A stretch of 64,000 nt of DNA from a virus: positions 1-64,000 of IMG/VR virus record IMGVR_UViG_3300008116_000173; one strand, 5' to 3'. This document shows, piece by piece, positions 1-47,457 of this stretch. Under the pieces are notes generated by a model. It saw only the letters and a list, made by a program, of their open reading frames with translations, was not told where the DNA came from and did not search any database. The position numbers and the translations under genes are program-made. Each line of letters starts with the position of its first letter. The stretch's first letter is position 1.

Positions 1-1161
1 AAAGCTAAAACAATAGCACAAGGTATAGCCGCTACTAAAAAATGGCACAGAGAAAATCCTGAATATACTAATGGTGGTTGGTTAAATCAATATGAACAAG
101 GTGGTATTAATCCTTTAGAAGCTGATATAATTTCAAAAGTTATAATGCAAAGGAATAAAGATAAAGACTTTGTAAAAAGAGCTTATGCTGTTGGTGAATA
201 CCCAGAATCTAATATGTTTCAACGCAATAGCCCTAATGATTTTGGTGAAAAAGAATCACATTTAATGTCTTGGGGAACAGATGATGAAGGACAAGCTTGG
301 ATGTATCCTAGTATTTTTAATCCTAATAATGAAGCTATTAAAGTTCCTAATGAATATGCAGATTATATTTCTTCTATAGGTTATAAAAAAGCTACAGGTA
401 TAAAATATGAAGAAGGTGGTTATGCTGATGATTCTGCAGTGTTAAATACTGAAGGTCAAGAAGTTAACACTATGCAATTTGCATTACCAACAGTACCTAC
501 TTTTAATTTTGGCAATGGTGATGGTGATGGTGAAGATCCTAAAGATAAAAAAAAGTCTAAAGATAAAAAAACTGATACTAGAACAATAGGTCAAAAAAGA
601 CATGATGCATTAGAAGCTGCTAAAACTAAAATCTTAAAAACTGAAAGTCCAGAAAACAAGAAAAAAATGGACATGTTATACAGCACTACTATAGCTGCTG
701 AAAATACATATGGGTATGACCCTAATGCTTATGGTAGAAAAAAACAAACACGTTCACCAATGTCAATTGATAATATTGCATTAGATGAATTGTTTAACCC
801 TAAAGGTGAAAAAAATCGTTATACACTACAACAAAAATTAAATTTTGATTTGTTGAGAAGTTTAGGTTTACCTACTGATAAAGCTAAGTTAAAAGAACTA
901 TTAGAAACAGATGATGCTTATGCTGGATTAGGTGCTGCTAAAACACTTTACTATAATGAAGGCGCTTTAAAAAATTTACCTAATCCTACAGATACTGCAG
1001 CTTATATAAATTTATATTTAAATGAATATAATAAAAGCGGTGCTTTAAAATATCAAAAAAGAAATGAATTAATTGATAATATTACTAATAAGATGAGGGC
1101 TGAAGGTAAACGTAAAACTAAAACTATTAAGCCAGTTGTTAAAAATAAAACTACTAAATAA
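1..1161 (+). CDS. Virion-associated protein, 5' truncated by window edge
   Basis: The reading frame is open from base 1 and in frame with the first internal ATG at 145, so the gene starts outside the window. The visible 386 residues carry a KKWHREN...GGWLNQYEQGG stretch near the left edge that echoes KWHHEMGGLQQFAEAG in the next gene, and an acidic/basic low-complexity linker (GDGDGEDPKDKKK). The stop codon overlaps the next start (TAATG). The position ahead of other virion genes and the shared GG motif suggest a structural or tail-associated protein. I do not recognise a named family; the function is inferred from context only. Confidence 0.6.
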   Translation, partial: KAKTIAQGIAATKKWHRENPEYTNGGWLNQYEQGGINPLEADIISKVIMQRNKDKDFVKRAYAVGEYPESNMFQRNSPNDFGEKESHLMSWGTDDEGQAWMYPSIFNPNNEAIKVPNEYADYISSIGYKKATGIKYEEGGYADDSAVLNTEGQEVNTMQFALPTVPTFNFGNGDGDGEDPKDKKKSKDKKTDTRTIGQKRHDALEAAKTKILKTESPENKKKMDMLYSTTIAAENTYGYDPNAYGRKKQTRSPMSIDNIALDELFNPKGEKNRYTLQQKLNFDLLRSLGLPTDKAKLKELLETDDAYAGLGAAKTLYYNEGALKNLPNPTDTAAYINLYLNEYNKSGALKYQKRNELIDNITNKMRAEGKRKTKTIKPVVKNKTTK

Positions 1162-12800: not shown

Positions 12801-15800
12801 ACTATACAATTACCATCTGAATTAAGTAAGTTTTTAGCTAAAGTTAAAAATCCTCAAAAACGTGAACGATTTATAAATGATTTCTTTAAAGATGTTTTTT
12901 ATAAAAATTCTAATTTACTTAACGAATTACAACGTAATTCTAAATTTGCTGAAATATTTTCAATATCTTATTTAGATTCATTTAAAGATGAAATAGGTGT
13001 TAAAAAAGGTATTGGATTTACATCATTATCACCAAGAGATTATTTAGCTATGAAAATAGCTTTATTTAATAACCTTGAGGTTAATAGTGAAGATCGTTTT
13101 ACAATGCCTGTAAATAAATATTTATATATTGTACCTGCTGATAAGAGTATGCAAGCCATTGTAGACTCTACATCATTTGATGTTTTCTTTGCACCAAACA
13201 ATATTGAAGTAAGTACCAATAGTAAAATCATTGAGTCGTTTTATAATATATTTTTACAAGAAGCTAAACGTATAAATAAGTTTAATAAAATAAAAAATAG
13301 TTTTTTAACTGAAGGTTCACAATCAAAATTTAAACCTACATTGCTTAATGAGTATGGTGTATTTAGTAAAAAAACATATCAAAGTGATTTAGTACAAAAT
13401 TTATTAAATAAATATAATACTGAAGGTACATTAACTAATGAAGAATATGCACAATTAGCCAATAAAATGGATGGTCAAGCATTTAAATTTAATTATTTAA
13501 ATAATGATTATTTTACATTTGCTAAAAATTTACCACAACAAACTAAAGAGTTAATTAAAAATACATTAGAAAATAGTTTACTTACTGATGATATGCTTGA
13601 AAAATCTTTAGCTGCGCAAAAAAATATAATTAAAAAAGAGTTAGCTTCATTTGTATATAAAACTTATGAAATAACTTTAAAAGAGTGGGAAAGTAAAGGC
13701 ATAATAACTAAAAATAAAAATAATGAATATGTTAATTCATTAGTTCAATTACCTTCTGTAAAAACAACTACTAGTGTAGATCAACGTATTAAAAATTTAG
13801 CATTAAAATATAGTGCTAATTATTTATTACACAATATTGAACTATCTAATATGTTTAACGGTGATGTATCTCAATATAAACCTAATGATTTACAAAAACG
13901 TACTAATCAGTCACAAAGTTTTATGACTGATGGTAAATTTAATAATCCTGTAATAAGAACTAAAGTAAATAAAGATGTTATACATGATTATTCTTTAGAA
14001 TCAGATTATACTAACATGGTTGATGTACTTAAACAATTAGGTGTATCTGATGAACGTATAAATGAAATATTAGATCCATATAAAAAGACTAATGTAACAG
14101 ATGCTCAAGTAATAATTCATCCTGAATTTTTTAAACTTATTCATTATTCACAAGGTACTTGGACACCTGAATTAGAAACAGCTTATAACATAGCTGAAGG
14201 TATAATACCTGGTGATGCTAAAAAAAGTGTACAAACATTATTACGTGGTTTTAAACCATTTTATTTTGGTAAACGTTTTGATCCTGTAACTGAAACATGG
14301 TATTATGAACAAGTTAAATGTTCTATGTTTCCATTATTTAAATCTTATACAGATATTAATCCATTATTTGCTTTAAAACGTGAAGAAATGGAAAAAGATA
14401 ATATAGATATGATAGCTTTTGAATCATCATTCAAAGGTGCTATAGGTTATAGAAGTGATTTTTTAGATGATAATAAAACTATATTAGAATTAGATGTTAA
14501 TAATTTTGGTATTCAACAAGCTAACCCTGATCATACTACTGAAGGTAATGATTCATTACGTCAGCTTAAAATGATTTTACCAGGTACTATTGACACTAAT
14601 GTTAGTTATAATGGTAGATCAGGTGCTGATATATTAGATGAAATATTATCACTTGAAGCTGCTAATTTAAAAACTGATTTAATTAAATTAACTAAATTAT
14701 TAAATAATCCTTCGTCACAAGCTGAGTTTAATAGCTTTATTCAAGAAATGATTACTAAGCGTGGTGCTTATGAAGTATTAGTTAATTTTTTAAGTGTTGA
14801 TGAAAATGGTCAATATATTTACCCATTAGATAGTGGTATAACAAGTACTAAAGTACAAGAATTATTATCTAGTGTATTTACTTCTAAAGTATTAAAACAA
14901 AAATTTAATCATGGTGGTTCATTAGTACAAGCTACTAGTTTAGGTCTTAAGTTTAGTAATTTAAGTGAACAACAAAAAAACCTTACACCTGAATTATTAG
15001 CTAAACAACGTAAATTAGAATGGTTTAAACCAAACATTCAAACTGGTCAAATAGGTTATGCAGAATGTATTATGCCTGCATCAGCTAAAAAATTCTTTGA
15101 TGAAAATGGTTTTTTAAAAGATATAAATAATATACCTGATGCATTAAAAGAATTTATAGCTTATCGTATACCTACTGAAGGTTTACATTCAACAATGGCT
15201 ATTAGAGTAATTGAATTTTTACCTAAAGAATTAGGTAATTTTATATTATTACCTTATCATGTAACTACACAATTTGGTGCTGACTTTGACTTTGATAAAA
15301 TTTATTTCTTTGGTAGAGAATTTACTACAAGTGTAAATAAGAAAACAGGTAAAGTAACTTACAGAATACCTGAAATGAATTATGATGAAACTGAGTATGC
15401 TACTGAACAACGTTATAAAGATTATGTATATTCTGTATTACAAGATAAAAATAATGAACTTTATTATGAAGATGTTATTACTGAATATGAAAAATATTAT
15501 GGTGAACCAATAGCATCATTATCTAAAAATGAAAAAATACAAGTTTTAGTAAGTGAAAACATACTAATGACACTAGATAAATTTAGTAAACGACCTATAG
15601 AAGAACAAAATACTAAAGCAGCTAGGAATAATCGTATAGTTGATAATTATCTTAATATTATTACATCTATTGAAAACTTAACTAATATTATTGCACCTTC
15701 AAGTTTTAAAGACATTGCTGATTTTAAAAATAATTATTTTGGTGAAAATGAAAAAGTTAATTTCTTTGCTGATTTTACACAAAATAATTATAAAAATCGT

Positions 15801-18473: not shown

Positions 18474-21460
18474 TAATAACTTATAAATTATGTCACAAAG
18501 TTGTTTTAATTTTAGTCTTAACGAAAATAAAAGAATAGCTGAAGATTTTGGAGAAATAGAAACTCAAAAATTAATTGAGTTGTATTTTCCAGATAAAAAT
18601 CCTGCTAGTTATAATGAATTTATAAGTAATGATAAAGTAAAAGAAGCTTTAGGTTTAAAAGGTATAACTGAAGCTAACAAACTTTTAAATACTAATTATA
18701 AAAAAGAAATTAGTAATCAACAATTAATTAATTTAAAAAGTATTATTAGTCAAACTAATAATAAATTAAAAGGTGAAAATAAAAACATAGTATATAAATT
18801 ATACAATGTTAAACAATTAGGTGAATCTGATAATTATACTTGGGGTATACGTGAAATAAAAGGTAATTTAGATGTTGATGCTAAAATTGAAAGAGCTTTA
18901 ACTAGAGGTAAAACTGAACAAGCTAAAAATTTAAAAAATTTAAATGATAATAATCAATTAACATTATTTCAATTATCTAATAAACAAATTATTAAACCAG
19001 GAGTACAAGAACTATTTGATTCTAATCCTGAATTAGCTAATCAAGTATATGAAGCTTTAGGGTTTAAAAATCAAACACCTAAAAGATTAACTAAATCTGA
19101 TAGAACTTTATCTAAGTATATATCTATTGGAAAATCTGAATTTGAAAAAGCTCAAAAAGAAGCCAATACCAAAAGTTCTGATTTTAATCATAATGGATTT
19201 AGATGGTATGAATCTGAGGATGAGTTATTTGGTGGAAAAGATTGGAGAAAAGATGAATTACCACAAAGTAATAGTGGAACTTTTGAGGATGATTACTATA
19301 AGTTACAAGTAGAATTTTCTCAAAAAGCAAGAAGTTTTCATCCAGAAGATTTTGATGAAATGGGTTTTGAGTTATTGTATGATTTACCTCAAGATGAATT
19401 ATTTCAAGCTATCAGATATTGGTATAAACCTTTAGAAGGAATTGAATTTACAGAATTAGCTGATATATATGACCCAAATTCTTCTTATAATAAAAAACAT
19501 CCAGAAGATATTAAATCTAAAGATGCTTCTGATTTAAGAAAGTTTATTGAAAAAGAAATAGGAATTAAAAATAAACTATACCCTTCCTTAAACAACCAAA
19601 TAACCCCACAACAAAAACAAAAAGCTCTACAACTATACTCTCAATACTTAGATACTATATTTCCTGAAAGAACAAATATTGTTTATTCTACATCAACACT
19701 AGATGATGGAAGTAATTTTTTAACAGATGATATAAATTATTCAAAAAAATATAAAGGTATTACAAAACCATATATTGTAAATTTAAAAAATTCTTTAAAA
19801 ACTAATTATGGTATTAATATTGCAATTTCTAATATATTATTTGAAGAAAATCCTAATATAGATGTAATTTATGGTAAAGAAGGAGAAAGAATAAGTTATA
19901 AAGATATATGGGCTGAAATTCAACAAGATCCTGATTTAACACAAAATGAAGCTATAAAATTATTATCATCTAGACCAACAAGAAATATTAATGTTTTTGT
20001 TGTTAAAAATAAATCAGAAAAATATGAATTAAATACTAAACAAGATATTGAAAATTTTAAAAATTTTATTAATAAAGAAAATAAATTAAATAATTTTGAT
20101 TTAGATATTGATGAAAATCTAACAAAAAAAGAAAAATTAACAAAATTTTTTACTCAATTTGGTTTTAAATTTGAAGAAGGAGATTTATCAACAGATTTAT
20201 TAAAAAAAATAATATATGTTAATAAAAATGATATTGAATTATTTATTAATAATTCTGTAAAAGCTTTAAGTCAACTTTTATTAGCTAATACTAATATAGA
20301 TTTTAATAAACTTAAAAATTTAATTGAAAATACTGAAGAATTTAAAAGTTTATTAAATAATTCAACAACTGAATTTAAAAATAATTATTATCATATAAAC
20401 AGTGGTAATAAAATTCCAATTAATGATTATAGAATTTATCAAAAAGATTATGAAAATATAAAAAAACAAGTAATTGAAAAATATTTAAAAGAATCTTTAT
20501 TAGATAATAAAAATTTAAAACCTTTACACAAATTAATTATTGATTTTATTAATTGGTTAAAAAATTTATTTGAAACTGCTACAAATTTAAAAGATATTAC
20601 TGATAGTTTAATACAACAAGTTTTTGAAAATCAAAAAGAAATTATTATTAATTCTAATCTTTTAAAAAATAAAGAAAAAGTTAATTTAAATAAAGCTTTA
20701 AAAGAAACTAAACATGGTAAAAATATAATTAAAATATTTGGTGATTTTGGTTTAATTCTTACTGGTAGTATAAGTGCATCTGAACAAGGTACTATTTGGA
20801 GAAAAATTGGTAAACTTTTACACGATATTGATTGGATTGTACCTAAAGATTTTAATAAAGATTATTTACAAAAATTATTTGATGAATTTCCTGGAGCAAC
20901 ATTAATAAGACAATTTGATAGTCCTGGTTATTACACAAGAACATATGTTGTTCCACCAAAAGGATACACTATTGCTAATTTAGAATATTTTGAAAAAGAA
21001 AAATATAATGAAAAATATATTAAACAATATGATTTGTTAGATCAAAATAATAAAATAGTTAATAATTATAGAAGATATTATGATGTAACACCTGAAGGAA
21101 AAGTTTACGAAACAAAAGAAGTTTATAATGAAAATTTACAAAATGTTGATGTAAATTTAGATCCTGTATTAGTTGATTTTTTTGAAAATAAACAAAATTT
21201 AGAATTTAAACCTTATACTGTAAATGTAGAAGGTGTTAAACTACAATTATCAAATTGGTTATCTTCTTTTTCTGAAAAATTAAGATACGGTAGAGCTAAA
21301 GATTTATTAGATTATGCTTTATTTATACCTAATGATTTAAATCAATCAAAAGATAATAAATCATTTCAATTAGAACCAACAATACAAAAAGATCCTACTG
21401 AAATTATTCAACAAGTTGATACTTTATTAAATGATTATATTAATAACAATAATATAAAAG
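17880..21460 (+). other. Compositionally distinct effector-domain module
   Basis: Across the 3' end of the 3883-aa gene and the first half of the 2056-aa gene, glycine codons change from nearly all GGT to frequent GGA, and word use changes with them. Both flanks keep the GGT-rich style. The segment contains the macro-like FGSN domain, an ADP-ribosyltransferase-like stretch and a nucleotidyltransferase-like domain. The contrast suggests that this part was acquired or exchanged separately from the conserved virion-protein backbone. The boundaries are approximate and were judged by eye. Confidence 0.5.
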
Positions 21461-24400
21461 TTGAATTTAAAGATAGGGTTTTAGATGATAATGGTAATGA
21501 TGTTGTAGCTTTTTACAATAGTGTTAAAAAAGTTATTGAGATTAATCAAAATCAACGTGATAGTAAAACATTACCTGAAGAATTAGCTCACCATTTACAT
21601 TTAGCTTTAGGTAAAGATCATATACTTGTTAAACGTGCTTTTAACCTATTAAATAGGGTTGATTATAAAGCTATGTTAGGTCAAGAATATGTTGACTTAT
21701 ATAAAAATAATACAGATTTATTAAAATTTGAAATATTAGGTAAATTAACTGCAGCAGCAGTACGTGGTGAAAAGATACCTTTACAAATGAATACTGTTGA
21801 AGGTAATAAGCTTTGGGATACTATTAAACGTATGATTGATGCTGTTATAAAGTTATTTAAACCTGATGTAAATGTTCAAAAAGAACTTGATAATTTAAGT
21901 AATCAATTTGCTAATATGCTTAAATCAGGTGTTAAAGTTGATAGTGAAAAATCAATTAATGCTAAATTATATCAAACTAATAAAGATTTAATTAATTTAA
22001 GTTCTAAAATTAAACCTGCTTACGTTTATTATACAACATTATCAACAGCACTTAAAAAGAAACAAAAACAATTTAGTGCATTATCTGAAGAATATAAAAT
22101 TATTCAAAATCAAATTAATACTATTGATATATCATTAAGAGAATTAATTCAAAATGAAAATGAATTACCTTTAATTAATCTTGTTGAAGAAACTATAACA
22201 ACTGTAGCTCAAAACATTAATGATTTTGAAATTAATTATTCTAAAGGTATAATGCCTTCAGAAAAAAATATTATTGAAGCTGTTGAAATACTTAAAAAGT
22301 TTTCAGGATTTCCTGGTACAGAAAGTAAAATTAATGCTTTAAAAGCTAGATTAATTAATTTTATTAAACCTTATTTAGCAAATAAAGCTTCTGAGGTATT
22401 AGGTAAACCTGTTACTGAGGAAGATATATCTGCTGTAACAAGTGATATTAATGTACTTGAAAAGAATTTTGGTACATTAGCAAGAACTGAATTTACATTA
22501 TCACGTATGCTTGGTTTATTAATTAAACAAAAGCAAAATACTATAGAACGTGAAAATAAGCAAGCTTTTGAACAAGTACAAGCTGCTACTAATAAATTAA
22601 AAGATTGGGCAGCTAGCAAAGGTATGTCTTTAGAGCAAGCTTTTGATGTATTACAACAAGAATACAGAGGTACTAGAATATTAACTAAAGAATATACTAG
22701 TGAATTTTATAAGTTAATTAATGATACTTATAAATTAGATCCTGAAAAAGCTAAAGAAGCACGTGCTAAAATAGCTATTTGGGATGCTGCTAATAAAAAA
22801 TGGATACCTAAATCTACTAAGTATAATAATCCAAATTACCAATTAATACATAAAAAAGGTAATGAAGATTTATTAAACTATTATAATTTCTTTAAAGATC
22901 AAATTCAAAAAATATCTGATAATACATTACCTATTGAATTAGATGATTATTTTATACCTAATGTGTATGAAGAAACACTTTTAGATATATTAAAAACTGA
23001 AGATGCTGTTGGTGATAAATTAAAAGATAGTGTTATCCATATATTAGAATTTAATCCATTTGAAAAAATGGGTACTGTTGATAAGCAGATGGATGTTATT
23101 TATGATGCTGATTTGATTGGTGATAAAATACCTTTAAAATACATTCAAGCACTACCTGAAGATAAGAAATCTAAAAATTTAAGTGCAGCATTATTAAAAT
23201 TCATGTATTTTGCTAATAGTTATAATCACATGAATGAAATATTACCTATTGCTAACTTAGTTCAGGAAACTATAACAGACCCTGATACTAGTAAAATACT
23301 TCAATATGGTAACCCTAACTTAAACGTTGCTGCTAAATCTAATATAGTTGACATGGTTAAAACTATAAAAGAAATGCAGATTTTAGGTAAGATGCGTAAA
23401 GAGAATGAAATGTTTAATGTATTAGGTTATAAATTAAACTATGGTAAATTAATTGATTTTGGTTTACAGTACACTTCTAAAATACGTTTAGGTTTAAATC
23501 CATTTGCTGCATTAGCTAACGTTGCTGTAGGTAACTTAGGTAATATTATTGAAGCTGCAGGTGGTAAATACTTTACATTAAGTGAATATTTTAGTGCTTT
23601 AGGTACCTTTACAACTGAAGCTAAAAAAGTAGATGGATTGATTAATCTATTTAACCCTTTGATGGAAATGGATGATTATGAAAATCTTAAAAAATTAGGT
23701 GTTGGTTCTAAAGAATACCGTGAAAAAATAAATGGTTTGTTATATGCACCTACACGTATGGGTGAAAAACAAATGCAAACTACTACTATGATTGCTATAT
23801 TAAAGCATAAAAAAGTTGACATTAAAGATAAAAAAGGTAATGTAACTGGTAGTATATCAATGTTAGATGCTTTTGATAGTAATGGTAAATGGGATACTGC
23901 TAAAATGGGTTATGAATTAAATGAACAAGAAATTAATAAAATAACCAATAGAGTACATGGTGTTAACCAAATGATTCATGGTAGGTATTCAGCTAAAGAT
24001 GCTGCTGCAATGCAACAATATGCTATGTATAGGGCTTTAATGCAATTTAAAAAATGGATACCAGCTGCTGTTGAACAACGTTTTATGGCTAGACGTTATG
24101 ACCCACTATTAGATGAAGAAACTGAAGGTAGGTATTGGGCTTATGCTAAAGGTCTTAGACTTATGATGGCTAAATTAAAAAATGATGCCAAAAAGATTGA
24201 AGAAAATAAGTTTACTGAATTAGATTGGTATAACATGCGTAGAAATGCTATGGAAGTACTAATGATAGGTTTAATGTTTGGTTTAACTACTTTCCTTAAA
24301 GCTGGTGATGATGATGATGAATTAAAGCGTAATGCAAGTTATAAGACTTATATGCGCCTTTTAAACAGCGTTAGTGGTGATTTAATGCAATGGTATTTAC

Positions 24401-24660
24401 CAGGTACATTTTTAGATAAAGCTATGGTATTACCTGTAACTAAAACATTAAGGTCACTTGAAAGAACTATACAGTATACACCTTATATGTTTGGTGATTA
24501 TACTAGTGATGCTTCAGGTACTTATGAAGCTGGTGAACGTAAAGATGAAAATAAATTCTGGAGTAATTTCTTTAATAATGTACCTTTTGGTAGTACTACT
24601 GCTGACATGTACAGAACATGGTTTAAAGATGATGTAAGTTACATACCTCGTAATAGGTAA
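18490..24660 (+). CDS. Giant virion protein with ART-like and NTase-like domains
   Basis: A 2056-aa protein starting 16 bp after the RNAP gene. Around residues 396-500, NIVYSTS, NFLTDDINYSKKY, PYIVNL and DVIYGKEG resemble phage ADP-ribosyltransferase-like modules (tentative). Residues 745-800 carry GS (759-760) followed by DID (779-781), the signature of minimal nucleotidyltransferases. At 1030-1035, EELAHH occupies the place of a zincin helix but lacks the first His. The C-terminal 600 residues resemble conserved crAss giant virion proteins and include a hydrophobic helix (MEVLMIGLMFGLTTFL) followed by an acidic DDDDE patch. The likely role is injected cargo or transfer-channel protein. The first half differs in codon use from the second. 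Confidence 0.7.
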   Translation: MSQSCFNFSLNENKRIAEDFGEIETQKLIELYFPDKNPASYNEFISNDKVKEALGLKGITEANKLLNTNYKKEISNQQLINLKSIISQTNNKLKGENKNIVYKLYNVKQLGESDNYTWGIREIKGNLDVDAKIERALTRGKTEQAKNLKNLNDNNQLTLFQLSNKQIIKPGVQELFDSNPELANQVYEALGFKNQTPKRLTKSDRTLSKYISIGKSEFEKAQKEANTKSSDFNHNGFRWYESEDELFGGKDWRKDELPQSNSGTFEDDYYKLQVEFSQKARSFHPEDFDEMGFELLYDLPQDELFQAIRYWYKPLEGIEFTELADIYDPNSSYNKKHPEDIKSKDASDLRKFIEKEIGIKNKLYPSLNNQITPQQKQKALQLYSQYLDTIFPERTNIVYSTSTLDDGSNFLTDDINYSKKYKGITKPYIVNLKNSLKTNYGINIAISNILFEENPNIDVIYGKEGERISYKDIWAEIQQDPDLTQNEAIKLLSSRPTRNINVFVVKNKSEKYELNTKQDIENFKNFINKENKLNNFDLDIDENLTKKEKLTKFFTQFGFKFEEGDLSTDLLKKIIYVNKNDIELFINNSVKALSQLLLANTNIDFNKLKNLIENTEEFKSLLNNSTTEFKNNYYHINSGNKIPINDYRIYQKDYENIKKQVIEKYLKESLLDNKNLKPLHKLIIDFINWLKNLFETATNLKDITDSLIQQVFENQKEIIINSNLLKNKEKVNLNKALKETKHGKNIIKIFGDFGLILTGSISASEQGTIWRKIGKLLHDIDWIVPKDFNKDYLQKLFDEFPGATLIRQFDSPGYYTRTYVVPPKGYTIANLEYFEKEKYNEKYIKQYDLLDQNNKIVNNYRRYYDVTPEGKVYETKEVYNENLQNVDVNLDPVLVDFFENKQNLEFKPYTVNVEGVKLQLSNWLSSFSEKLRYGRAKDLLDYALFIPNDLNQSKDNKSFQLEPTIQKDPTEIIQQVDTLLNDYINNNNIKVEFKDRVLDDNGNDVVAFYNSVKKVIEINQNQRDSKTLPEELAHHLHLALGKDHILVKRAFNLLNRVDYKAMLGQEYVDLYKNNTDLLKFEILGKLTAAAVRGEKIPLQMNTVEGNKLWDTIKRMIDAVIKLFKPDVNVQKELDNLSNQFANMLKSGVKVDSEKSINAKLYQTNKDLINLSSKIKPAYVYYTTLSTALKKKQKQFSALSEEYKIIQNQINTIDISLRELIQNENELPLINLVEETITTVAQNINDFEINYSKGIMPSEKNIIEAVEILKKFSGFPGTESKINALKARLINFIKPYLANKASEVLGKPVTEEDISAVTSDINVLEKNFGTLARTEFTLSRMLGLLIKQKQNTIERENKQAFEQVQAATNKLKDWAASKGMSLEQAFDVLQQEYRGTRILTKEYTSEFYKLINDTYKLDPEKAKEARAKIAIWDAANKKWIPKSTKYNNPNYQLIHKKGNEDLLNYYNFFKDQIQKISDNTLPIELDDYFIPNVYEETLLDILKTEDAVGDKLKDSVIHILEFNPFEKMGTVDKQMDVIYDADLIGDKIPLKYIQALPEDKKSKNLSAALLKFMYFANSYNHMNEILPIANLVQETITDPDTSKILQYGNPNLNVAAKSNIVDMVKTIKEMQILGKMRKENEMFNVLGYKLNYGKLIDFGLQYTSKIRLGLNPFAALANVAVGNLGNIIEAAGGKYFTLSEYFSALGTFTTEAKKVDGLINLFNPLMEMDDYENLKKLGVGSKEYREKINGLLYAPTRMGEKQMQTTTMIAILKHKKVDIKDKKGNVTGSISMLDAFDSNGKWDTAKMGYELNEQEINKITNRVHGVNQMIHGRYSAKDAAAMQQYAMYRALMQFKKWIPAAVEQRFMARRYDPLLDEETEGRYWAYAKGLRLMMAKLKNDAKKIEENKFTELDWYNMRRNAMEVLMIGLMFGLTTFLKAGDDDDELKRNASYKTYMRLLNSVSGDLMQWYLPGTFLDKAMVLPVTKTLRSLERTIQYTPYMFGDYTSDASGTYEAGERKDENKFWSNFFNNVPFGSTTADMYRTWFKDDVSYIPRNR

Positions 24661-35383: not shown

Positions 35384-36061
35384 TTACATACTAATTTCTC
35401 TTAACGCTTTGTCAAAAGATTTGTTAATTTCATGACCTCCACGGTCCCATACATGTTGTCTAAAGCCATTATTTGAATGATAACATCCATCAACTTTAAT
35501 ATAACTACCAATTAAAAGTATTCCCTTTTCAGGATGTAAGATACATATCTTATCAGAACCTATTATATTTTTGGTTAATTTATCAAATAATTTACTGTTA
35601 TCATAAGCCATATCCAACATGCCATTTACAGCCAACACATATCTTGTGAAGGCATAAGTGTCAGAAAACTTAGGATTTAATTTAACATACTCACTTATAT
35701 CATAAAATATACCATTATGAACCATACACGGTTTATCTGTAACAACATCTGTTGCTATTATTTCTAAATGGTTATCTGATATAACAAAAGGATGTGTATT
35801 TTCATCACTATTATCACCTTGAGTACCAAACCTATGATGTAATATTAAATGATCATTACTTGTTAAGTTCAAATCAGAAATATCACGTATCATGCGTTCA
35901 GCATTAAAGTAACCTTTCTTAACACCTATTGTATTAGCATTGCCTTTTTTATACATAAAACCACTACCATCAGTATTAGTTTTCATGCCTTGTATAATAT
36001 AACGGCTAATATTTCTAATATTCTTTTCAACCCCTTGAGGTATTACACTAATTAAACACAT
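35384..36061 (-). CDS. Class II glutamine amidotransferase (Ntn), small form
   Basis: A 225-aa protein. Removal of Met1 would expose Cys2, the N-terminal nucleophile of class II glutamine amidotransferases. Further family positions are GSGFMY, HHRFGT (75-80, the substrate-carboxylate arginine R77), HPF (90-92) and VHNG (114-117, oxyanion loop). The family hydrolyses glutamine and channels ammonia to a partner. No acceptor domain is fused, so the ammonia probably goes to one of the ligases upstream. It starts 1 bp after the amidoligase stop and is the last gene of the cassette to be transcribed. Confidence 0.88.
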   Translation of the reverse strand: MCLISVIPQGVEKNIRNISRYIIQGMKTNTDGSGFMYKKGNANTIGVKKGYFNAERMIRDISDLNLTSNDHLILHHRFGTQGDNSDENTHPFVISDNHLEIIATDVVTDKPCMVHNGIFYDISEYVKLNPKFSDTYAFTRYVLAVNGMLDMAYDNSKLFDKLTKNIIGSDKICILHPEKGILLIGSYIKVDGCYHSNNGFRQHVWDRGGHEINKSFDKALREISM

Positions 36062-36062
36062 T

Positions 36063-37616
36063 TTATAAGTTTTTTAAGGATATATTATTATCTAATTCAT
36101 TATCAACATACTCATCATTTTCAGTAAATTCAGCATCATTAAACTTAGCTATACGTTTATCAACCCAAGCTATAAGTTTATTTGCTTTCTGTCCATATAC
36201 TTCAGTAAGTATTTTTGCTAATGATAGATTACTATTTTCATAAATAAAACGTTTATGATTTTCAACAATATCTACTAAAGCCATACAGATTAACAACCAG
36301 TTTTTAATCTTAATATAAGATGTAGAACCAGGTGCTGGTCTGAATTCAATAGTATAAATCTTGTTTTTCCTAGTATTAAATAATGCAGGTACAAAATTTA
36401 CCCAGCAATAACGTGCTGAATCATGATCATAACCACATTTATAACCTTTAGGATGGTCATTCTTTTTATTTACTTTTTTACTAGGATTATTATTTGCGCT
36501 AACATATCTAACAATAGCTTCATAAGTAACATCTATAGCATAATTCCTATTAAAGCTTTGTAAGTCTTTAATATTAAAATTTATCATAGGACGACTATCT
36601 AAGAATCTACAATATGTATTATTACGACGAGATTTAGGTAACATTGTAAATATCTCACGTTGTAATTTATGATACAAATAATACATTAAAACAATATTTT
36701 CTTTGTTAAAGTTAATATTGGATAAATGCACATGCACACCACATTGATGATTTACTAAACAACGTTTAGTTAACTCATTACAAAGCTTTTTTAGTTTAAG
36801 TAAACCACGGTCACCCATTAATACATCAGTAACATATTCCTTACCATAAGGATGATTGTTTTCAGCATCACGTAATGAACCATCATGAACACTAGAACAA
36901 TTTAATGGTGCTAGTACATGTGCAGGTACTAAACCACTAATAGTTTCTATTTCTAAACCAAAACTATAACGTTTACCATAAGTATTATGATATGTTGTAG
37001 GTAGATTGTTATTATCACTTGGTGCATTAAATTTAATACCATCAACACGCATTTGTTTTACAAATGGTTCAATTTCAGATTTAAGTTTAAATATACCTGT
37101 ATAATAATCTTCAGCGTAAAATTTATTAAAAGTTGCATTAGCAAGTAAACTTGGTTTACCTAGATATGGTTTATTAGATTGTATACGTATATAACCTAAT
37201 CTAAAAGCTTGATCATGATCACAAGTATACTTTATTTCAGAATCAATTATAGGATAATTCTCAATAACAGCTGTTGCATTAAATTTAATAATATAACGAT
37301 CTGATTCAAAATAATCTGTTACAATATTAGGATCATCAGGCCTAGCATAAGAATCATGAAGTTGTATTAAATCATTTGAATATTCTACAACTTCACCTGT
37401 ATATAACATTACCTCATTTTCATCTAAATCAGGTTCATAAGGATTATTGTCATCATCATGTACTTCTGTATACTCATCTTCTGAAGGGTTAAACCAAAGA
37501 TCATCAAGAGTTGTAGATATTATATCAGTAGATGTGGGTACTACATCTGGTTCAGGAGCATCTGGTTCAGGTGGTGTTAAATTTTCAGGTATTGAATGAT
37601 TTGGAATTATTGGCAT
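36063..37616 (-). CDS. Amidoligase (COOH-NH2 ligase, PF12224-like)
   Basis: A 517-aa protein. Residues 215-500 match amidoligase enzymes of the glutamine-synthetase fold: FGLEIET (219-225), HDGSL (244-248), a CGVHVHLS metal/ATP strand (292-299) and IEFRPAPGS (423-431). These enzymes join a carboxylate to an amine using ATP. The N-terminal 210 residues are unusual: a Pro/Asp-rich acidic leader, then an uncharacterised region (100-160) that I cannot assign. It is sandwiched between two glutamine amidotransferase genes with 1-2 bp gaps, so ammonia or a peptide amine is a plausible second substrate. The target is unknown: peptide, cell wall or modified nucleotide. Confidence 0.85.
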   Translation of the reverse strand: MPIIPNHSIPENLTPPEPDAPEPDVVPTSTDIISTTLDDLWFNPSEDEYTEVHDDDNNPYEPDLDENEVMLYTGEVVEYSNDLIQLHDSYARPDDPNIVTDYFESDRYIIKFNATAVIENYPIIDSEIKYTCDHDQAFRLGYIRIQSNKPYLGKPSLLANATFNKFYAEDYYTGIFKLKSEIEPFVKQMRVDGIKFNAPSDNNNLPTTYHNTYGKRYSFGLEIETISGLVPAHVLAPLNCSSVHDGSLRDAENNHPYGKEYVTDVLMGDRGLLKLKKLCNELTKRCLVNHQCGVHVHLSNINFNKENIVLMYYLYHKLQREIFTMLPKSRRNNTYCRFLDSRPMINFNIKDLQSFNRNYAIDVTYEAIVRYVSANNNPSKKVNKKNDHPKGYKCGYDHDSARYCWVNFVPALFNTRKNKIYTIEFRPAPGSTSYIKIKNWLLICMALVDIVENHKRFIYENSNLSLAKILTEVYGQKANKLIAWVDKRIAKFNDAEFTENDEYVDNELDNNISLKNL

Positions 37617-37618
37617 AA

Positions 37619-39142
37619 TTAAAGTTTTTGATCCATTGTTAATAATTGATAATGCATTGTTTCAGCATTTGTTTTTAATTGTTTAAGTGTTTCACAAACA
37701 TCAAAAGTATCATCACATTCACCTTTACTGAGTATGGTAATTAACATTTGTAATTCAACATCAAGATTTGTAAAAAATGAATCTGTTTTTGTTAGTACTT
37801 CTTCAATGTCAAGTTCAGTATCAGCATCATTAAAATCATCATGATTAACCATTGGTGTAGTATTATGTTTGGTTATATCTTTTACTACAGGATGCACAGT
37901 TGTAGGTGTATTATAAATATCATAAGCATCATAATAACCTTCATAATAACCATCTGTTGAAGTATAATCATTAACAGCTGTATTATTATTTTTATATGTT
38001 CTTATTTCTAAGTCTGTAGCAGCTCTGAAATAACGACGGTCTGCATTACAAATATCTTTTTTAGTATTGTAATTTTCAAGACTTAAGATGTTATTATTGA
38101 CTTTAGTAATTGTTACAAGTTCATCAACATCAATAACAACTTCTTTCTTATCATCAACAATATCATATAAAGATACTGCAGTGTCCCATATTTCAAGATA
38201 ATCATTTGTATTAAAATAAGATTTGTGATATATTTCTACTGGTGAATTATCTTCATCTTTTTGTTTAACCTCTAACATACCAAATTCTGTTGCACCACAT
38301 ATAAAATAAAATTTATCTTGTATGAGTTTGAATTTACGTGTAGTAGAAGTATCATTAAAGTTTGCCCTTAACCAAGAATTAACTAATTCATTAGGTTGTA
38401 CAAAACTATTATAATAACCACTGTTTGTATTATAGTTACCATATGTAGTATTATTATAACCAGTATTAATAAAAGGACGTTTGTAAGGTGTATTATTAAT
38501 TTTAACAGTTTTTTCAACAATACCATCACATATTGTGTATACTGTATCTACTTTAAATTCTTTAACACTTTCACAACCAATATAAATTAATGATTCTTTA
38601 ATAGATGATATATACATACAACCATCAATCATACCTCTAAATAAAGGACGTTCTGTATTCCTAAAAACAAATAATTTATTAGGCATAGTAGTTTTATGCA
38701 TAATAATTGCTGCAGGACCATCAATTTCCTTTAACACACTAATGTTATCTTGTTTACTTATTGCACCACATATAACGTCACTATCTACAGAATATTCCAT
38801 AGTTGACAATTCATACTTATGTGCTAAATCTAAGTGATTTTTAAGTGTACCATTGTGTTGAAGATACCAATCCCCTCGTTTGAAGGGATGAGTATTTTCA
38901 AGTGTATTTAAACCAATGGTTTTAGCTCTAACGTGAGCCATTAGAATTGTGTCAGGTATTAATTTAAAGTTATTATGAATAACTACATCAGAACCCTTGT
39001 TTAAGGTCCTATTATGCCCATTTAAGGGACTATAAAAACCAGTAGCATCTTCACCACGTTCTAAAGAATTCCATAATGTTAATAATTTTATTTTCTCAAT
39101 ATCAAATGGTTTGGTACCACTGTAACCTAATTGTCCACACAT
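37619..39142 (-). CDS. Class II glutamine amidotransferase, long form
   Basis: A 507-aa protein. The N-terminal 200 residues are a complete Ntn amidotransferase: Cys2 (MCGQLGYSG), GEDATGFY, AHVRAKT (R72), HPF (85-87) and QHNG (95-98), followed by an SDVI acidic strand. Residues about 230-507 are a separate, Asn/Thr/Asp-rich region without a recognisable fold, so this is not simply glutamine phosphoribosyl- or asparagine-synthase-like. It sits between two different COOH-NH2 ligase genes with 1-2 bp spacing and is a paralogue, not a copy, of the 225-aa amidotransferase at the end of the cassette. Confidence 0.85.
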   Translation of the reverse strand: MCGQLGYSGTKPFDIEKIKLLTLWNSLERGEDATGFYSPLNGHNRTLNKGSDVVIHNNFKLIPDTILMAHVRAKTIGLNTLENTHPFKRGDWYLQHNGTLKNHLDLAHKYELSTMEYSVDSDVICGAISKQDNISVLKEIDGPAAIIMHKTTMPNKLFVFRNTERPLFRGMIDGCMYISSIKESLIYIGCESVKEFKVDTVYTICDGIVEKTVKINNTPYKRPFINTGYNNTTYGNYNTNSGYYNSFVQPNELVNSWLRANFNDTSTTRKFKLIQDKFYFICGATEFGMLEVKQKDEDNSPVEIYHKSYFNTNDYLEIWDTAVSLYDIVDDKKEVVIDVDELVTITKVNNNILSLENYNTKKDICNADRRYFRAATDLEIRTYKNNNTAVNDYTSTDGYYEGYYDAYDIYNTPTTVHPVVKDITKHNTTPMVNHDDFNDADTELDIEEVLTKTDSFFTNLDVELQMLITILSKGECDDTFDVCETLKQLKTNAETMHYQLLTMDQKL

Positions 39143-39143
39143 A

Positions 39144-39953
39144 TTAAATTAATTGTTTAATGTTAGTAATATTTAAATTATAATCTTCAATAATATCGGT
39201 AGCTATCCGTTGATTGCATGAATTAACAGCATCAATTATATCACCAGGGTTAGTAATAATACCACCTTGATTAACAAAATTAATAGCTGCTTGTGTTTGG
39301 TCATAAACCCAGCTTATAAGTTGGTCATTTTGTATAAAATAACTACTTAATACACGGTATTCTACACCATATTTCTTCATCCTAAAATCACCAGCTTTAC
39401 CATACATTTTCCTACGTTCATTATCTGGGTCAATAAGTACACTAGGTACACCTAGGAATAAATCCATAGCCCTGATAATATCAATAGAAGTTTGATCATT
39501 AGGATTATCATAACCCACATGAATATGCATACCAGTAGTACGTAATGTATAATCACTACGATCTACCTGATGTTCTTCAAATGACCATGCATCATATGAT
39601 TTACTACAACCCATATGCTGAGCTGCAGGATTGCTTAAATCATCTTCATTAAAACGTGCTGAAGCTACATAATGAGGTATTAATTCTAAAGGCTTTAATA
39701 CTGTTTCAGTAATATAATTCTTTACAAAATTAATACTATTAATAAATTCAGTTTTAGTTGTAGCTGGCGGTATTGTAAATTCTAATGCCACGTTATCTTC
39801 TTGTAAAGAATAGCCTATATTTTCTTCATTAATAGGGATAGGTTTTTCTTTTGTACCACCAACTAAACCACATACAGGTACATATTTACCATAAAGTGGT
39901 GAGTATAAAAATAATTCAGGATCTGTACCAATTTTTGCGTTATTAATTTTCAT
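39144..39953 (-). CDS. phiEco32-type COOH-NH2 ligase (type 2 amidoligase)
   Basis: A 269-aa protein with ordered motifs of the phiEco32-like COOH-NH2 ligase family: GTDPELFL (9-16), QEDNVALEF (51-59), GMHIHVGY (141-148), RRKMYGKAGDFR (180-191) and EYR (198-200). The fold is distantly related to glutamine synthetase and predicted to form amide bonds with ATP. It is a different family from the PF12224-like amidoligase two genes downstream, so the phage carries two distinct peptide-bond-forming enzymes plus an ATP-grasp. Family membership is clear; the substrate is unknown. Confidence 0.85.
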   Translation of the reverse strand: MKINNAKIGTDPELFLYSPLYGKYVPVCGLVGGTKEKPIPINEENIGYSLQEDNVALEFTIPPATTKTEFINSINFVKNYITETVLKPLELIPHYVASARFNEDDLSNPAAQHMGCSKSYDAWSFEEHQVDRSDYTLRTTGMHIHVGYDNPNDQTSIDIIRAMDLFLGVPSVLIDPDNERRKMYGKAGDFRMKKYGVEYRVLSSYFIQNDQLISWVYDQTQAAINFVNQGGIITNPGDIIDAVNSCNQRIATDIIEDYNLNITNIKQLI

Positions 39954-39958
39954 AGTTT

Positions 39959-40525
39959 TTAAATTAGTTTGTTAAAAATTTTAATTAAGCCACCACGTTT
40001 ATTTACATATTGATCTACAATAGCATATGATTGAGCTAAATAAGGTTCTAAAAGTAAATTAGCAGTATTATCAGCACTAACACTATATGTTACACATGTA
40101 TAACCAAATAAATCAGCTAAATCTTCAGCAATAGTTAATCCTAATTCAAAATATTCAGGATGTTTATTGCTGCCATACATACCATTTAATTCCATATTGT
40201 TAATAACTGCAGTTGAACAATTACCAAATAATTCATTTACATTAAATCTTATATTTGATAATGGTCTATATTGTTCATATTCACTTTTAGTTTCATAAAA
40301 ATAAATACGAAACTCATTATCAATAAAATGTGCATGAATAGTATTATTAGCTTTACTTATAACTCTTATATGTTTAGGCTTTATAATTTTACTATATTTT
40401 TCCTGAATTAATTTTGTAGCTAAAGATTCAATATAAAGATCTAATGCTTTTAAAAACATAGGTGCTTTGTGAGCATCCATACCACCATAATTTGATTTGA
40501 TGTTTTTTATTTCATTTCTTTCCAT
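39959..40525 (-). CDS. Unknown conserved-context protein in amidoligase cassette
   Basis: A 188-aa protein between the ATP-grasp and the type 2 amidoligase, overlapping the ATP-grasp start region by 19 bp. It is mixed alpha/beta with a helix then strand (GLTIAEDLADLFGYTCVTYS). I do not recognise a family. A weak GNAT-like rhythm at the C-terminus is not enough for a call, although acetyltransferase-like amidoligases are known in such clusters. Its fixed place suggests a role in the same pathway. Confidence 0.5.
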   Translation of the reverse strand: MERNEIKNIKSNYGGMDAHKAPMFLKALDLYIESLATKLIQEKYSKIIKPKHIRVISKANNTIHAHFIDNEFRIYFYETKSEYEQYRPLSNIRFNVNELFGNCSTAVINNMELNGMYGSNKHPEYFELGLTIAEDLADLFGYTCVTYSVSADNTANLLLEPYLAQSYAIVDQYVNKRGGLIKIFNKLI

Positions 40526-41367
40526 TTTAAAATAATTAAATTTGTTAATTGTTGTAAATAATGTTTATGTGTTAATGTACCAAATGATGGTGCGCTACAA
40601 CTTTCAATAATAATATATTCACAAGATTTTCTTCTTTGACCTTTACTATTAGTTGCAGATTGTACTTTTACATCAAAAGCGCCTATATCTAAACCTAATT
40701 GTTTTAAAGCTTTAACACAATCCTGTATAATATCATTAAAATTAATAGGTTCATCAAATTTTTCATTGTCTTGTAAAATCCATACACAGTTATCATCATG
40801 TCTTTGAAAACGTTTATTTTCAGGTGTATCATTTTTTAACATTTTACGACAGGTATAAAAACAACCATTTTCAGTAACATGTAAACGATATTCACGAGAA
40901 TATGTATAGAATTTCTCAAATATATAATTACTTAAGTCCTTATCAGCCATCCATGCTTTTAGTTCTTCTGGTGTATTATGTTTTACATTACCAGTACCAC
41001 GTGAACCATGTATATGTTTAGATAACATAGGATATGGTAAATCATTAATAGATACTGAAATATTAAGTTTTTTATCTAAAAACATAATTTCTGAATTAGC
41101 ACTATTAAAAGTATACCAATCTGCTGTTTTTATATTGGCTTGGTTAAAACATTGTTTCATTAGAAACTTATTAGCACTATTAATTATACCTTGTATAGAA
41201 TTTATTTCTACTTGAGGTTTAAATATAGCACCACTTGTTGTAGAACCTAAGCGTATAACAGATCTGAATCTAAATAAAGGTAATTCACTACGTAAATTAC
41301 TATGACTAGGATGTCTACTAAATACTTTTGGTCTAAAAGCTGTTAATTTTTTCTTTTTAGTAATCAT
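40507..41367 (-). CDS. ATP-grasp ligase, phiEco32/YheCD-like
   Basis: A 286-aa protein. Motifs in order: IRLGSTTS (38-45), which I associate with YheCD-like and phiEco32-like ATP-grasps; SKHIHGSRGTG (116-126), the nucleotide-binding lysine plus glycine loop; EKFYTYSREYR (151-161); GAFDVKV (229-235); and IIIESCSAPSFG (252-263), where the E coordinates Mg-ATP. ATP-grasp enzymes ligate a carboxylate through an acylphosphate to an amine or thiol. The linked amidoligases and amidotransferases suggest assembly or amidation of a peptide-like product or conjugate. It shares 4 bp with the gene upstream. Confidence 0.85.
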   Translation of the reverse strand: MITKKKKLTAFRPKVFSRHPSHSNLRSELPLFRFRSVIRLGSTTSGAIFKPQVEINSIQGIINSANKFLMKQCFNQANIKTADWYTFNSANSEIMFLDKKLNISVSINDLPYPMLSKHIHGSRGTGNVKHNTPEELKAWMADKDLSNYIFEKFYTYSREYRLHVTENGCFYTCRKMLKNDTPENKRFQRHDDNCVWILQDNEKFDEPINFNDIIQDCVKALKQLGLDIGAFDVKVQSATNSKGQRRKSCEYIIIESCSAPSFGTLTHKHYLQQLTNLIILKWKEMK

Positions 41368-42134
41368 AAAAGTTTAAGGTTTTTTTGGTCTATCATAAAA
41401 AGATAATTTTTAGATTTAATCTGACAATATGTTGTAGAAGATACTTTACGTATATCACTTACAACATAATCAGTTTTTACATTTAAAGGAAGACGACCAG
41501 GATTAATTATATTAACTTTACTACCTACAACTATTTTAGTAATTTTAGGTAAAGAATAACCTTTAAATAATTGTATAAAATTAGGTTCAACTAATTCTAA
41601 ATCAGAAGCTACAAATTTTAAACTTTTATTAATTTCAGGGTTATATACTTCAGCAATAGTTTGTGTTTCACCTGTTTCTTTACAAACATAATTGGTTAAA
41701 ACTTTTGTAATTACAAATTGTTTACCAACCATACTTTGTTTGACATTTGTATATTTAAAAAGCTCACTAGATTTTTTAAAATCTACAACTTTAAATATTA
41801 AATTATCAAGTAAATTTTTATAACCTGAAAGTTCAAGATGTGCAAATTGTATAGTATTATTAAAATTTATTAATGAATCAGTTCTAAATCTATGTATAAA
41901 ATCTTTTAACTCAAATAATCTATAATTTTTAGTAGAATTATCTAAAATTATTATAAAATTTTTCTCTTGATATTCAGGTTTAAATCTTATAATAAAAGCA
42001 TTATAACCTTGTATTAAACTATTATGTATATGACGATAAGCACCTGTTGCATATCTGACATATTCTACACGTGTATCTGTTAAAATTAATCGTTTTATAT
42101 GTTCTGTTAAGTTATTAAAATTGTTCATAATCAA
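41364..42134 (-). CDS. Hypothetical protein with SH3/KOW-like repeats
   Basis: A 256-aa protein between DNA polymerase and the amidoligase cassette, overlapping both (20 bp with the polymerase gene, 4 bp with ATP-grasp). The C-terminal 120 residues show two beta-barrel-like segments (SMVGKQFVITKVLT... and VVGSKVNIINPGRLP...) with the rhythm of SH3/KOW domains. The N-terminal 120 residues are mixed. The overlap pattern makes it the first gene of the cassette or the last of the polymerase unit. No catalytic motif seen. Confidence 0.5.
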   Translation of the reverse strand: MIMNNFNNLTEHIKRLILTDTRVEYVRYATGAYRHIHNSLIQGYNAFIIRFKPEYQEKNFIIILDNSTKNYRLFELKDFIHRFRTDSLINFNNTIQFAHLELSGYKNLLDNLIFKVVDFKKSSELFKYTNVKQSMVGKQFVITKVLTNYVCKETGETQTIAEVYNPEINKSLKFVASDLELVEPNFIQLFKGYSLPKITKIVVGSKVNIINPGRLPLNVKTDYVVSDIRKVSSTTYCQIKSKNYLFMIDQKNLKLL

Positions 42135-46517: not shown

Positions 46518-47375
46518 TTAAAATATGTATCTAATTGTATTCCAAGGTATTATACTATCATGTAATTCTTTAAACTGTTCAATAAACTCAGTTTTTAAAT
46601 AATGTTTATACCTTATATTTTTACCACCATATTGTGATATTTTATCTTCTTGAATATCTGGTTGCCATAATAATTCTTCACCAGGTATATTATTAATGAT
46701 ATTATATTGATGTTTATTAACATTATGTGTAAGGAATATAACTTCACATTTAACCATGTCTTTATAATCAACATAATCATTAACCATTTGAAATAAATAT
46801 TCATAATCTTCAAGCCAATTATGATATACTACGACAGGACTAAAATTAATATGTACATCATAACCAGCATCAATAAATGCATCAATAGCTTTAATTCTAT
46901 CTATTATTTCAGATGTATTAGGTTCTAATATATCAGATATATTTTGTGGCATAAGACTAAATCTAATCCTTACTTTAAATTCAGGATCAAATGTTGTTAA
47001 TGTAGGATTAACATATTTAGTAGCAAATGAACCAAAAGCTTTGGGATGTTCTTTAAAGAATTTAAATATATATTCCCATTTGTGGTATTTAGCATGTAAT
47101 GCAAAATCTTCATTACATGATATGTCATAAGTAATGTATTCTGAATGTGTTTGATTAGGTTTTGATACGTCAGCTAAAAACCAGACGTGATTATTTATAG
47201 CATCAAGTATTTGACTTGCATTATTAGCTATATCTAACCCATCTGGTTTATGCCTTTTCATATAACAATAACCACAATTGTACAGACATCCATAACCAAA
47301 ACTAGGACTAATATAATCAGTTGACCTACCACTAGGTCTGATTATCATTGATTTTCTTGTTAATTGTTTTAACAT
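46518..47375 (-). CDS. Radical SAM protein, spore photoproduct lyase-like
   Basis: A 285-aa protein. C30-x3-C34-x2-C37 (GCLYNCGYCY) binds the SAM-coordinating 4Fe-4S cluster. The TIM-barrel strands match the SPL family: YDISCNEDF, IRFSLMPQ, a RIKAIDAFIDAGYDVHINFSP strand-helix pair, then a W-x4-Y helix. The cysteine of DISCNED could be the hydrogen-atom donor, comparable to C141 of Bacillus SPL, but that needs alignment. SPL-type enzymes reverse thymine photoproducts. A phage copy in an anaerobic host could repair its DNA, or it could be a divergent radical SAM enzyme with another substrate. Confidence 0.8.
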   Translation of the reverse strand: MLKQLTRKSMIIRPSGRSTDYISPSFGYGCLYNCGYCYMKRHKPDGLDIANNASQILDAINNHVWFLADVSKPNQTHSEYITYDISCNEDFALHAKYHKWEYIFKFFKEHPKAFGSFATKYVNPTLTTFDPEFKVRIRFSLMPQNISDILEPNTSEIIDRIKAIDAFIDAGYDVHINFSPVVVYHNWLEDYEYLFQMVNDYVDYKDMVKCEVIFLTHNVNKHQYNIINNIPGEELLWQPDIQEDKISQYGGKNIRYKHYLKTEFIEQFKELHDSIIPWNTIRYIF

Positions 47376-47390
47376 AATTTATTTTTTAGT

Positions 47391-47457
47391 AGTCAGGGCA
47401 GGTCCGAGCTGCATCTCTCATCTACTATGATGAGGCGTTACCTTACGCCACCTGACT
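47391..47457 (-). tRNA. tRNA-like cloverleaf, possibly degenerate tRNA
   Basis: On the minus strand a 7-bp acceptor stem (AGTCAGG / CCTGACT) encloses T8-G9, a perfect D-arm (GCGT-AAGGTA-ACGC with GG), an anticodon-like hairpin (CTCATC-ATAGTA-GATGAG) and a T-arm-like hairpin (GCAG-CTCGGAC-CTGC). The total is 67 nt. The anticodon loop is 6 or 8 nt depending on pairing and the T-stem has only 4 bp, so no confident anticodon is readable. CCA is not encoded. It lies alone in a 93-bp gap between two genes. Confidence 0.45.

Follow-up and report, generated by a model that had tools for sequence, protein, structure and literature searches.

Two class II glutamine amidotransferases on either side of an amidoligase in a crAss-like phage cassette

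Gene order at the locus

The window, that is, the whole 64-kb stretch of DNA analysed here, comes from the 72.5-kb virus record of a crAss-like phage. PHROG matches are 6681 for its terminase, 6547 for its portal and 11589 for its major head protein. For the terminase there are matches in 157 phage records; those listed, 20 in all, are cr-series gut phages and faecal phages with 35.6-38.4% identity, and the tally of organisms includes crAssphage as well as Bacteroides, Flavobacterium and Cellulophaga phages. One of the cr-series phages, cr108_1, is classed in Crassvirales. The cassette is a tight minus-strand run of seven genes, in which neighbours overlap or lie 1-5 bases apart, arranged in the order P7, ATP-grasp ligase, U188, COOH.NH2 ligase, GATlong, Amidoligase_2 and GATshort (Table 1).

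Table 1. Cassette genes, predicted regions of GATlong and other features of the window
Feature	Position	Strand	Length	Match or basis
P7 (P0007)	41364..42134	-	256 aa	no family match of weight
RimK-like ATP-grasp ligase (P0006)	40507..41367	-	286 aa	phrog_2599, E 1.4e-23
U188 (P0005)	39959..40525	-	188 aa	homologues in the same place in L015, L019, L020
COOH.NH2 ligase type 2 (P0004)	39144..39953	-	269 aa	PF14395, E 6.6e-13; phrog_3815, E 1.2e-67
GATlong (P0001), class II glutamine amidotransferase	37619..39142	-	507 aa	Pfam, alignment, AF2, fold matches
GATlong, Ntn glutaminase domain	residues 1-217			
GATlong, Tyr/Asn/Gly linker	residues 218-249			
GATlong, predicted beta-barrel 1	residues about 250-314			
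GATlong, predicted SH3-like beta-barrel 2	residues about 315-388			
GATlong, predicted disordered acidic stretch	residues about 389-444			
GATlong, predicted helical hairpin	residues about 446-506			
Amidoligase_2 (P0002), between both GATs	36063..37616	-	517 aa	PF12224, E 3e-13, residues 249-448; phrog_2443, E 3.9e-20
GATshort (P0003), second class II amidotransferase	35384..36061	-	225 aa	weak Pfam, catalytic residues, AF2 fold
Giant ORF	6822-18473	+	3883 aa	
Giant ORF	18490-24660	+	2056 aa	
Spore photoproduct lyase-like radical SAM protein	46518-47375	-		PF20903, E 4.9e-22
tRNA-like gene	47389-47457	-		ARAGORN; anticodon unassigned

Homologues of P7 are located upstream of the ATP-grasp gene in L015, L019, L020, L021, L023, L084 and L114. 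The ATP-grasp ligase itself also matches the TIGR00768 rimK_fam model (E 1.2e-7), below that model's cut-off. U188 has no match in Pfam, PHROG or NCBIfam, and its one further homologue match, in L062, lies outside the cassette. Proteins of about 190 aa, which belong to PHROGs 4877 or 11055 or to none, are found near the COOH.NH2 ligase in many cassettes (L008, L010, L011, L012); no PHROG or NCBIfam match is common to them and U188. L124 shows two ORFs for the COOH.NH2 ligase (145 and 127 aa, at 5127 and 5856), with about 0.3 kb between them. Outside the cassette, the two giant ORFs of the window are perhaps a candidate crAss-type virion RNA polymerase region.

Domain structure of the two amidotransferases

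GATlong starts with ATG and its protein begins MCG. The complete N-terminal Ntn domain proposed for this gene in the initial annotation is there, with C2, R72, H85-P86-F87 and H96-N97-G98 all found. Across P0001 and 58 relatives (59 sequences), the alignment shows no variation at R72, P86, H96, N97, G98 and D120, and hardly any at C2. We take C2 to be the N-terminal nucleophile, the arginine to bind glutamine and the Asn-Gly pair to form the oxyanion hole. Pfam detects class II amidotransferase domains only (GATase_6, E 2.2e-14; GATase_7; GATase_4), with the best stretches falling inside residues 61-184 and PF13522 scoring 54 bits against a cut-off of 27, while PHROG 4736 spans residues 1-216. 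The 59-sequence profile matches PurF (E 2.7e-24) and GlmS (E 2.7e-20). GATlong misses the NCBIfam cut-offs for GlmS, PurF and AsnB widely (e.g., 48.8 versus 381 bits), and the EgtC-type model TIGR03442 gives 22.4 bits versus a cut-off of 218.65.

The AlphaFold2 model of GATlong was built with 59 sequences and has a mean pLDDT of 80.8, exceeding 90 in most of the GAT domain and dropping below 50 at residues 226-246 and 389-442. It superimposes on GlmS (VIA Z 26.6, rmsd 2.4 over 213 residues) and, through the GAT domain, on PurF (VIA Z 25.1). EgtC, a gamma-glutamyl hydrolase of ergothioneine synthesis with the class II Ntn fold, is matched as well (Z 22.9, rmsd 2.4 over 201 residues). Since EgtC also fits the model, the fold alone cannot separate ammonia supply from gamma-glutamyl cleavage. 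Judged from alignment and predicted structure, residues 1-217 are a GlmS/PurF-like class II glutaminase domain with glutamine-binding residues.

The C-terminal half had been described as matching no standard partner domain. By sequence this description stands: residues 218-507 searched alone gave no Pfam family over the cut-off (best DUF261, E 0.41), and no PDB sequence matched better than E 0.064 (LicT). By structure it does not fully hold, given that the predicted second barrel appears to resemble a known fold. The predicted barrel 1 has a pLDDT of about 78-85 but falls to 59 across residues 291-300, barrel 2 reaches about 87-93, and residues 446-506 form two helices at about 65-88. Within residues 315-378, barrel 2 matches the LYN SH3 domain (8wff; Z 8.6, rmsd 2.7, 60 residues), and within 319-391 it matches Ephexin4 (7csr; Z 8.8, rmsd 3.3, 70 residues); these Z values, obtained with the barrel inside the full-length model, are barely above the tool's 'common' level. 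They are moderate evidence that the modelled barrel resembles SH3 domains. Profile comparison with hhalign found no mutual similarity among barrel 1, barrel 2, P7 and the C-termini of GATshort proteins. A synthetase in the C-terminal half is not supported, as the Pfam and PDB searches gave nothing significant and the model consists of barrels, disorder and a helical hairpin; the common synthetase domain that would have refuted the reading in the initial annotation did not turn up.

Conservation is distributed very unevenly along GATlong. Identity to the L015 protein is 65% in the GAT domain versus 24-39% elsewhere (barrels 33% and 24%, hairpin 26%). All invariant columns of the 59-sequence alignment lie inside the GAT domain, and beyond residue 204 an eight-member alignment retains only F310 and Y498 as invariant. 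The length of uncut GATlong ORFs, the broken L010 copy being left out, extends from 292 aa (L088) to 852 aa (L047). Near-copies of the gene are present in two further metagenome contigs (99-100% identity). Synonymous/nonsynonymous codon changes number 4/0 in the GAT domain and 2/4 in the remainder relative to L002, and 2/0 and 2/2, respectively, relative to L001. The fast divergence of the C-terminal half suggests a docking arm, and a docking or tethering role would be its simplest reading.

GATshort carries C2, R77, HPF at 90-92 and HNG at 115-117, and an eight-member alignment shows C2, H75, R77, T80, G82, H90-P91, H115-N116-G117 and S133-D134 to be invariant. Its Pfam matches stay below the cut-offs (GATase_4, 14.9 bits versus 23; GATase_6, 14.3 versus 27), and BLASTP at E 1e-5 returned no alignment between GATshort and residues 1-220 of GATlong. 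The AlphaFold2 model (pLDDT 86) fits GlmS (Z 15.2, rmsd 3.4 over 179) and EgtC (Z 14.3); with the fits tied, assignment as GlmS-like or EgtC-like from structure was dropped. A search for close cellular relatives gave 23 pattern matches in cellular genome contigs, none of them a relative. GATshort is a real second class II amidotransferase, distantly related to the first. The operon does contain the two non-identical class II amidotransferases noted initially, one on each side of a single Amidoligase_2. This places one amidoligase between two putative partners that would hydrolyse glutamine or gamma-glutamyl bonds. The anatomy of the locus is secure as far as the sequence and the predicted models allow.

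Cassette neighbourhoods across phages

At E 0.01 or better, 300 of 50,697 phage records match the GAT; ten were examined, and the 300 are not necessarily all cassettes. COOH.NH2 ligase, GATshort and GATlong sequences served as queries for gathering loci, which biases the co-occurrence counts in favour of these three families. Loci holding a complete GATlong ORF number 117, or 75 once near-copies are removed (the broken L010 copy is among the 75). GATlong lies at most 150 bp from Amidoligase_2 in 66/75, from the COOH.NH2 ligase in 36/75, from the ATP-grasp ligase in 24/75 and from GGCT in 7/75, and it is not adjacent to Amidoligase_2 in 9/75. In the available stretches of L013, L128 and L132, GATlong and Amidoligase_2 occur without a detected COOH.NH2 ligase or ATP-grasp ligase. 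In L010 (Pseudomonas phage TL, 6001-7102), GATlong is annotated as two misc features instead of one gene, resembling the N- and C-terminal parts of a LUZ24 protein.

The close spacing of GATlong and Amidoligase_2 in 66 of the 75 loci fits a complex. The chances seem about even that GATlong is a glutaminase subunit feeding ammonia to Amidoligase_2, with its C-terminal half acting as the docking arm. GATlong would hydrolyse glutamine and hand ammonia to the adjacent amidoligase, and the linker, the two barrels, the disordered acidic stretch and the hairpin could serve docking and tethering.

The position of GATshort is strikingly constant. Of 42 locus rows, 40 have it as the next gene after Amidoligase_2, at a spacing of -9 to 19 bp; in the two remaining rows (L101, L105) the contig starts just before GATshort. 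These rows represent 23 records, window included; the L039 and L087 rows, cut ORFs labelled GATshort, were left out. GATshort measures 406-554 aa in 15/23 records, 230-247 aa in 4/23 and 225 aa in 4/23, the stop codon of the 225-aa form being identical in the window, L001, L002 and L097. On the Amidoligase_2 tree (55 rows; two-gene pairs sit on long branches and their placement is unsure), the 12 GATshort-bearing rows and L076 form one group (100/98), so a single gain of GATshort suffices; it would have occurred once, directly behind Amidoligase_2. In L076, an ORF at 7722-8609 occupies the GATshort position; it lacks C2, HHR and HNG and is possibly a dead copy or an unrelated gene. Because its homology is unsupported (0.0 bits with the profile), L076 was scored as lacking GATshort.

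GATshort-type genes also occur in distant phages. A tblastn search with the first 216 residues of the L019 GATshort gave matches at E 0.01 or better in 24 of the 50,697 phage records, five of which were examined. In mycobacteriophage Marvin and OM43 phage MEP402, the GATshort-type gene adjoins an Amidoligase_2 match that is weak and below the cut-off (E 0.001 and 9.4e-4, respectively). A Christensenellales phage has a strong Amidoligase_2 (E 8e-54) about 1.1 kb from its GATshort-type gene. In phage C75C1 (L137, 6001-6897), one 298-aa protein fuses a GATshort-like part (GATase_4, E 9.4e-5; SNG replacing HNG) to GGCT (PF06094, E 2.7e-21, residues 167-285), and Amidoligase_2 (E 3.5e-30) lies about 0.9 kb away. 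The fifth record, MT835576, carries no annotation. COOH.NH2 ligase, RimK-like ATP-grasp and over-cut-off GATase_6 matches were found in none of the five, while the same search was positive for all three families in three cassette phages used as controls.

To compare gamma-glutamyl-cleaving enzymes, 49 cassette records were chosen from about 105, namely contigs of at least 35 kb plus five shorter GATshort-bearing fragments (L018, L021, L022, L023, L037), in which absence is weak evidence; L065, L126, L128, L129 and L135 were left out. GGCT (PF06094) is present in 21/49 records. Our own GGCT profile finds it in 22/48 loci, the extra one being a weak L124 match, and at most 1 kb from a core cassette gene in 19/48. 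A C26-like class I enzyme (phrog_7218) occurs in 35/49 records and in 35/48 loci; 32 of these loci have it no more than 1 kb from a core gene. This gamma-glutamyl hydrolase-like gene is a frequent cassette member (e.g., L009 4562-5194 and L011 4668-5318). GATshort was counted in 12/49 records, at more than 90 bits. Its profile matches 28/49 at E 0.001 or better; the other 16 matches score below 23 bits over the HPF region, in GATlong-sized open frames.

Seven of the 49 records lack matches to both GGCT and C26, namely the window, L018, L019, L020, L021, L023 and L037; the window's 72.5-kb record is possibly incomplete, and among the seven there are four fragments (9.8-22.4 kb). GATshort is present in six of these seven, and the seventh, L020, ends inside GATlong, before the GATshort position. 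Among the 42 records that do have GGCT or C26, six carry GATshort. With kinship ignored, Fisher's test gives p 7.5e-5 without L020 and 4.1e-4 with it. Restriction to records of at least 60 kb gives 2/0 versus 2/18 (p 0.026). Such a distribution supports, without proving, that GATshort took over gamma-glutamyl cleavage in the window's lineage.

A rival reading of GATshort is that, instead of supplying ammonia, it removes gamma-glutamyl groups in an EgtC-like manner, in place of GGCT or C26; the cassette would then make a gamma-glutamyl intermediate that is trimmed later. The mostly close placement of C26 and GGCT to core genes (32/35 and 19/22 within 1 kb) and the C75C1 fusion are in line with it, as is the only NCBIfam match of a C26 member, to gamma-glutamyl-CDP-amidate hydrolase (E 7.9e-5, below the cut-off). 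However, half of the 12 GATshort records also have GGCT or C26, and since these keep such an enzyme and the C75C1 protein has both domains, the relation is not a simple swap. Moreover, the pattern comes mainly from one clade, as five of the seven records (window, L015/L018, L019, L021, L023) stand together on the Amidoligase_2 tree (92/72), with L037 elsewhere in the GATshort group and L020 absent from the tree. The sample also includes the five purposely added fragments, and with records of at least 35 kb only, the counts are 2/0 versus 5/36 (p 0.023, kinship ignored). Finally, the GATshort model fits GlmS and EgtC equally. Trimming by GATshort is possible, though somewhat unlikely.

Rather doubtful is the broader proposal that the cassette needs at least one gamma-glutamyl-cleaving enzyme drawn from three unrelated folds (GGCT, C26 and class II Ntn), GATshort being the sole one in the window's lineage and acting directly on Amidoligase_2. 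If true, the cassette would run a protect-and-remove gamma-glutamyl pathway and not a simple amidation. The initial annotation had offered a heteromeric complex or two ammonia-dependent steps, and this finds partial support: the two GATs with glutamine-binding residues and the adjacency of GATlong to Amidoligase_2 speak for it, but GATshort may instead cleave gamma-glutamyl amides. Ammonia supply and trimming by GATshort can both be partly true.

Possible functions and comparison with known cassettes

GATlong could itself be degradative, as a gamma-glutamyl or amide hydrolase recycling material. The available part of PMC5498523 places the glutamine amidotransferase with gamma-glutamyl cyclotransferase as degradation genes, and the structural match to EgtC points the same way. 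Against this, the GATlong profile is nearest to the ammonia-supplying PurF and GlmS, the gene adjoins Amidoligase_2 in most loci, and GGCT or C26 already covers gamma-glutamyl cleavage in 42/49 records, which makes a degradative GATlong improbable. Auxiliary nitrogen metabolism, moving glutamine nitrogen into host amino acids, was proposed for the amidoligase, amidotransferase, glutathione synthase and GGCT genes of Phage-ZRK32 (PMC10945688, eLife 2024, as far as its accessible text goes), a phage reported to make a Pseudomonas strain grow better when nitrate or ammonium was supplied. We consider this quite improbable for the cassette, since for that strain the authors themselves regard what these genes do as speculation, and since GATlong has none of the synthase domains found in biosynthetic enzymes that use glutamine. 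A divergent catalytic domain that would make GATlong self-contained is very improbable, for although 290 residues have no sequence match and barrel 2 is confidently folded in the model, barrels of about 65-75 residues would be small for a synthetase, only two positions past residue 204 are invariant among eight members, and the ORF varies nearly threefold in length.

Under the preferred reading, in which GATlong supplies ammonia to Amidoligase_2, both glutamine- or gamma-glutamyl-hydrolysing partners and the amidoligase probably form one complex, as far as gene arrangement can indicate. The product may be what the published guess holds, host peptidoglycan changes that block superinfection. The cassette occurs across several phage groups, and in the window version its parts are separate: a single amidoligase stands with two glutaminase-type enzymes, and the searches found no further enzyme that cleaves gamma-glutamyl bonds. 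This separation could help to tell amidation of carboxylates by the cassette from the making and trimming of gamma-glutamyl bonds. Some distant phages have Amidoligase_2 and GATshort without the other ligases, and Amidoligase_2 with one GAT is the simplest, two-gene form.

Iyer et al. 2009 is said to be the usual citation for the amidoligase cassette. In the sections available, PMC5498523 attributes to RIO-1-like podoviruses a 'peptidoglycan modification cassette' of seven genes, names phiEco32, LUZ24 and PaP3 among its carriers and hypothesises that it changes the cell surface against superinfection. The block is also listed in phage UFV-P2 (PMC3890496, in part), and the accessible portion of PMC10580990 again suggests a superinfection role in phiEco32 and, for Marvin, cites the idea of a secondary metabolite. 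The portions of the literature covered by our search contain no biochemical test of the cassette product, and the search gave nothing joining crAss-like with amidoligase or with glutamine amidotransferase.

Compared with GlmS and PurF, GATlong has the glutaminase fold and glutamine-binding residues in common, but where those enzymes carry a fused synthase domain it has small barrels, disorder and a hairpin according to the model. EgtC resembles both phage GATs in having a class II Ntn fold without a synthase domain, as reflected in the structural matches; unlike EgtC, the phage proteins sit in a ligase cassette. The Marvin and MEP402 pairs are like the window in that a GATshort-type protein stands directly beside an Amidoligase_2-matching protein, and unlike it in that searches for the COOH.NH2 ligase, RimK-like ATP-grasp and over-cut-off GATase_6 came back empty for their records.

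The same families occur together in Cellulophaga phage phi14:2, cr108_1, Zobellviridae phages and a LUZ24-like Pseudomonas phage. The window likewise holds the phiEco32/RIO-1-type set, with ATP-grasp ligase, COOH.NH2 ligase, Amidoligase_2 and GAT-II together, so that the RIO-1, HP1, phiEco32, LUZ24 and PaP3 cassettes and the window have the same four protein families in one gene block. HP1 and LUZ24-like cassettes contain GGCT, whereas the window record (maybe incomplete) has no PF06094 or C26 match; GGCT is not strictly defining for the cassette, since 28/49 cassette records have no match to it. The window further differs from these phages in being a crAss-like record and in its additional U188 and P7 genes and a second class II amidotransferase after Amidoligase_2. 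The locus is thus a variant of the known cassette, in which Amidoligase_2 is flanked by two different GATs.
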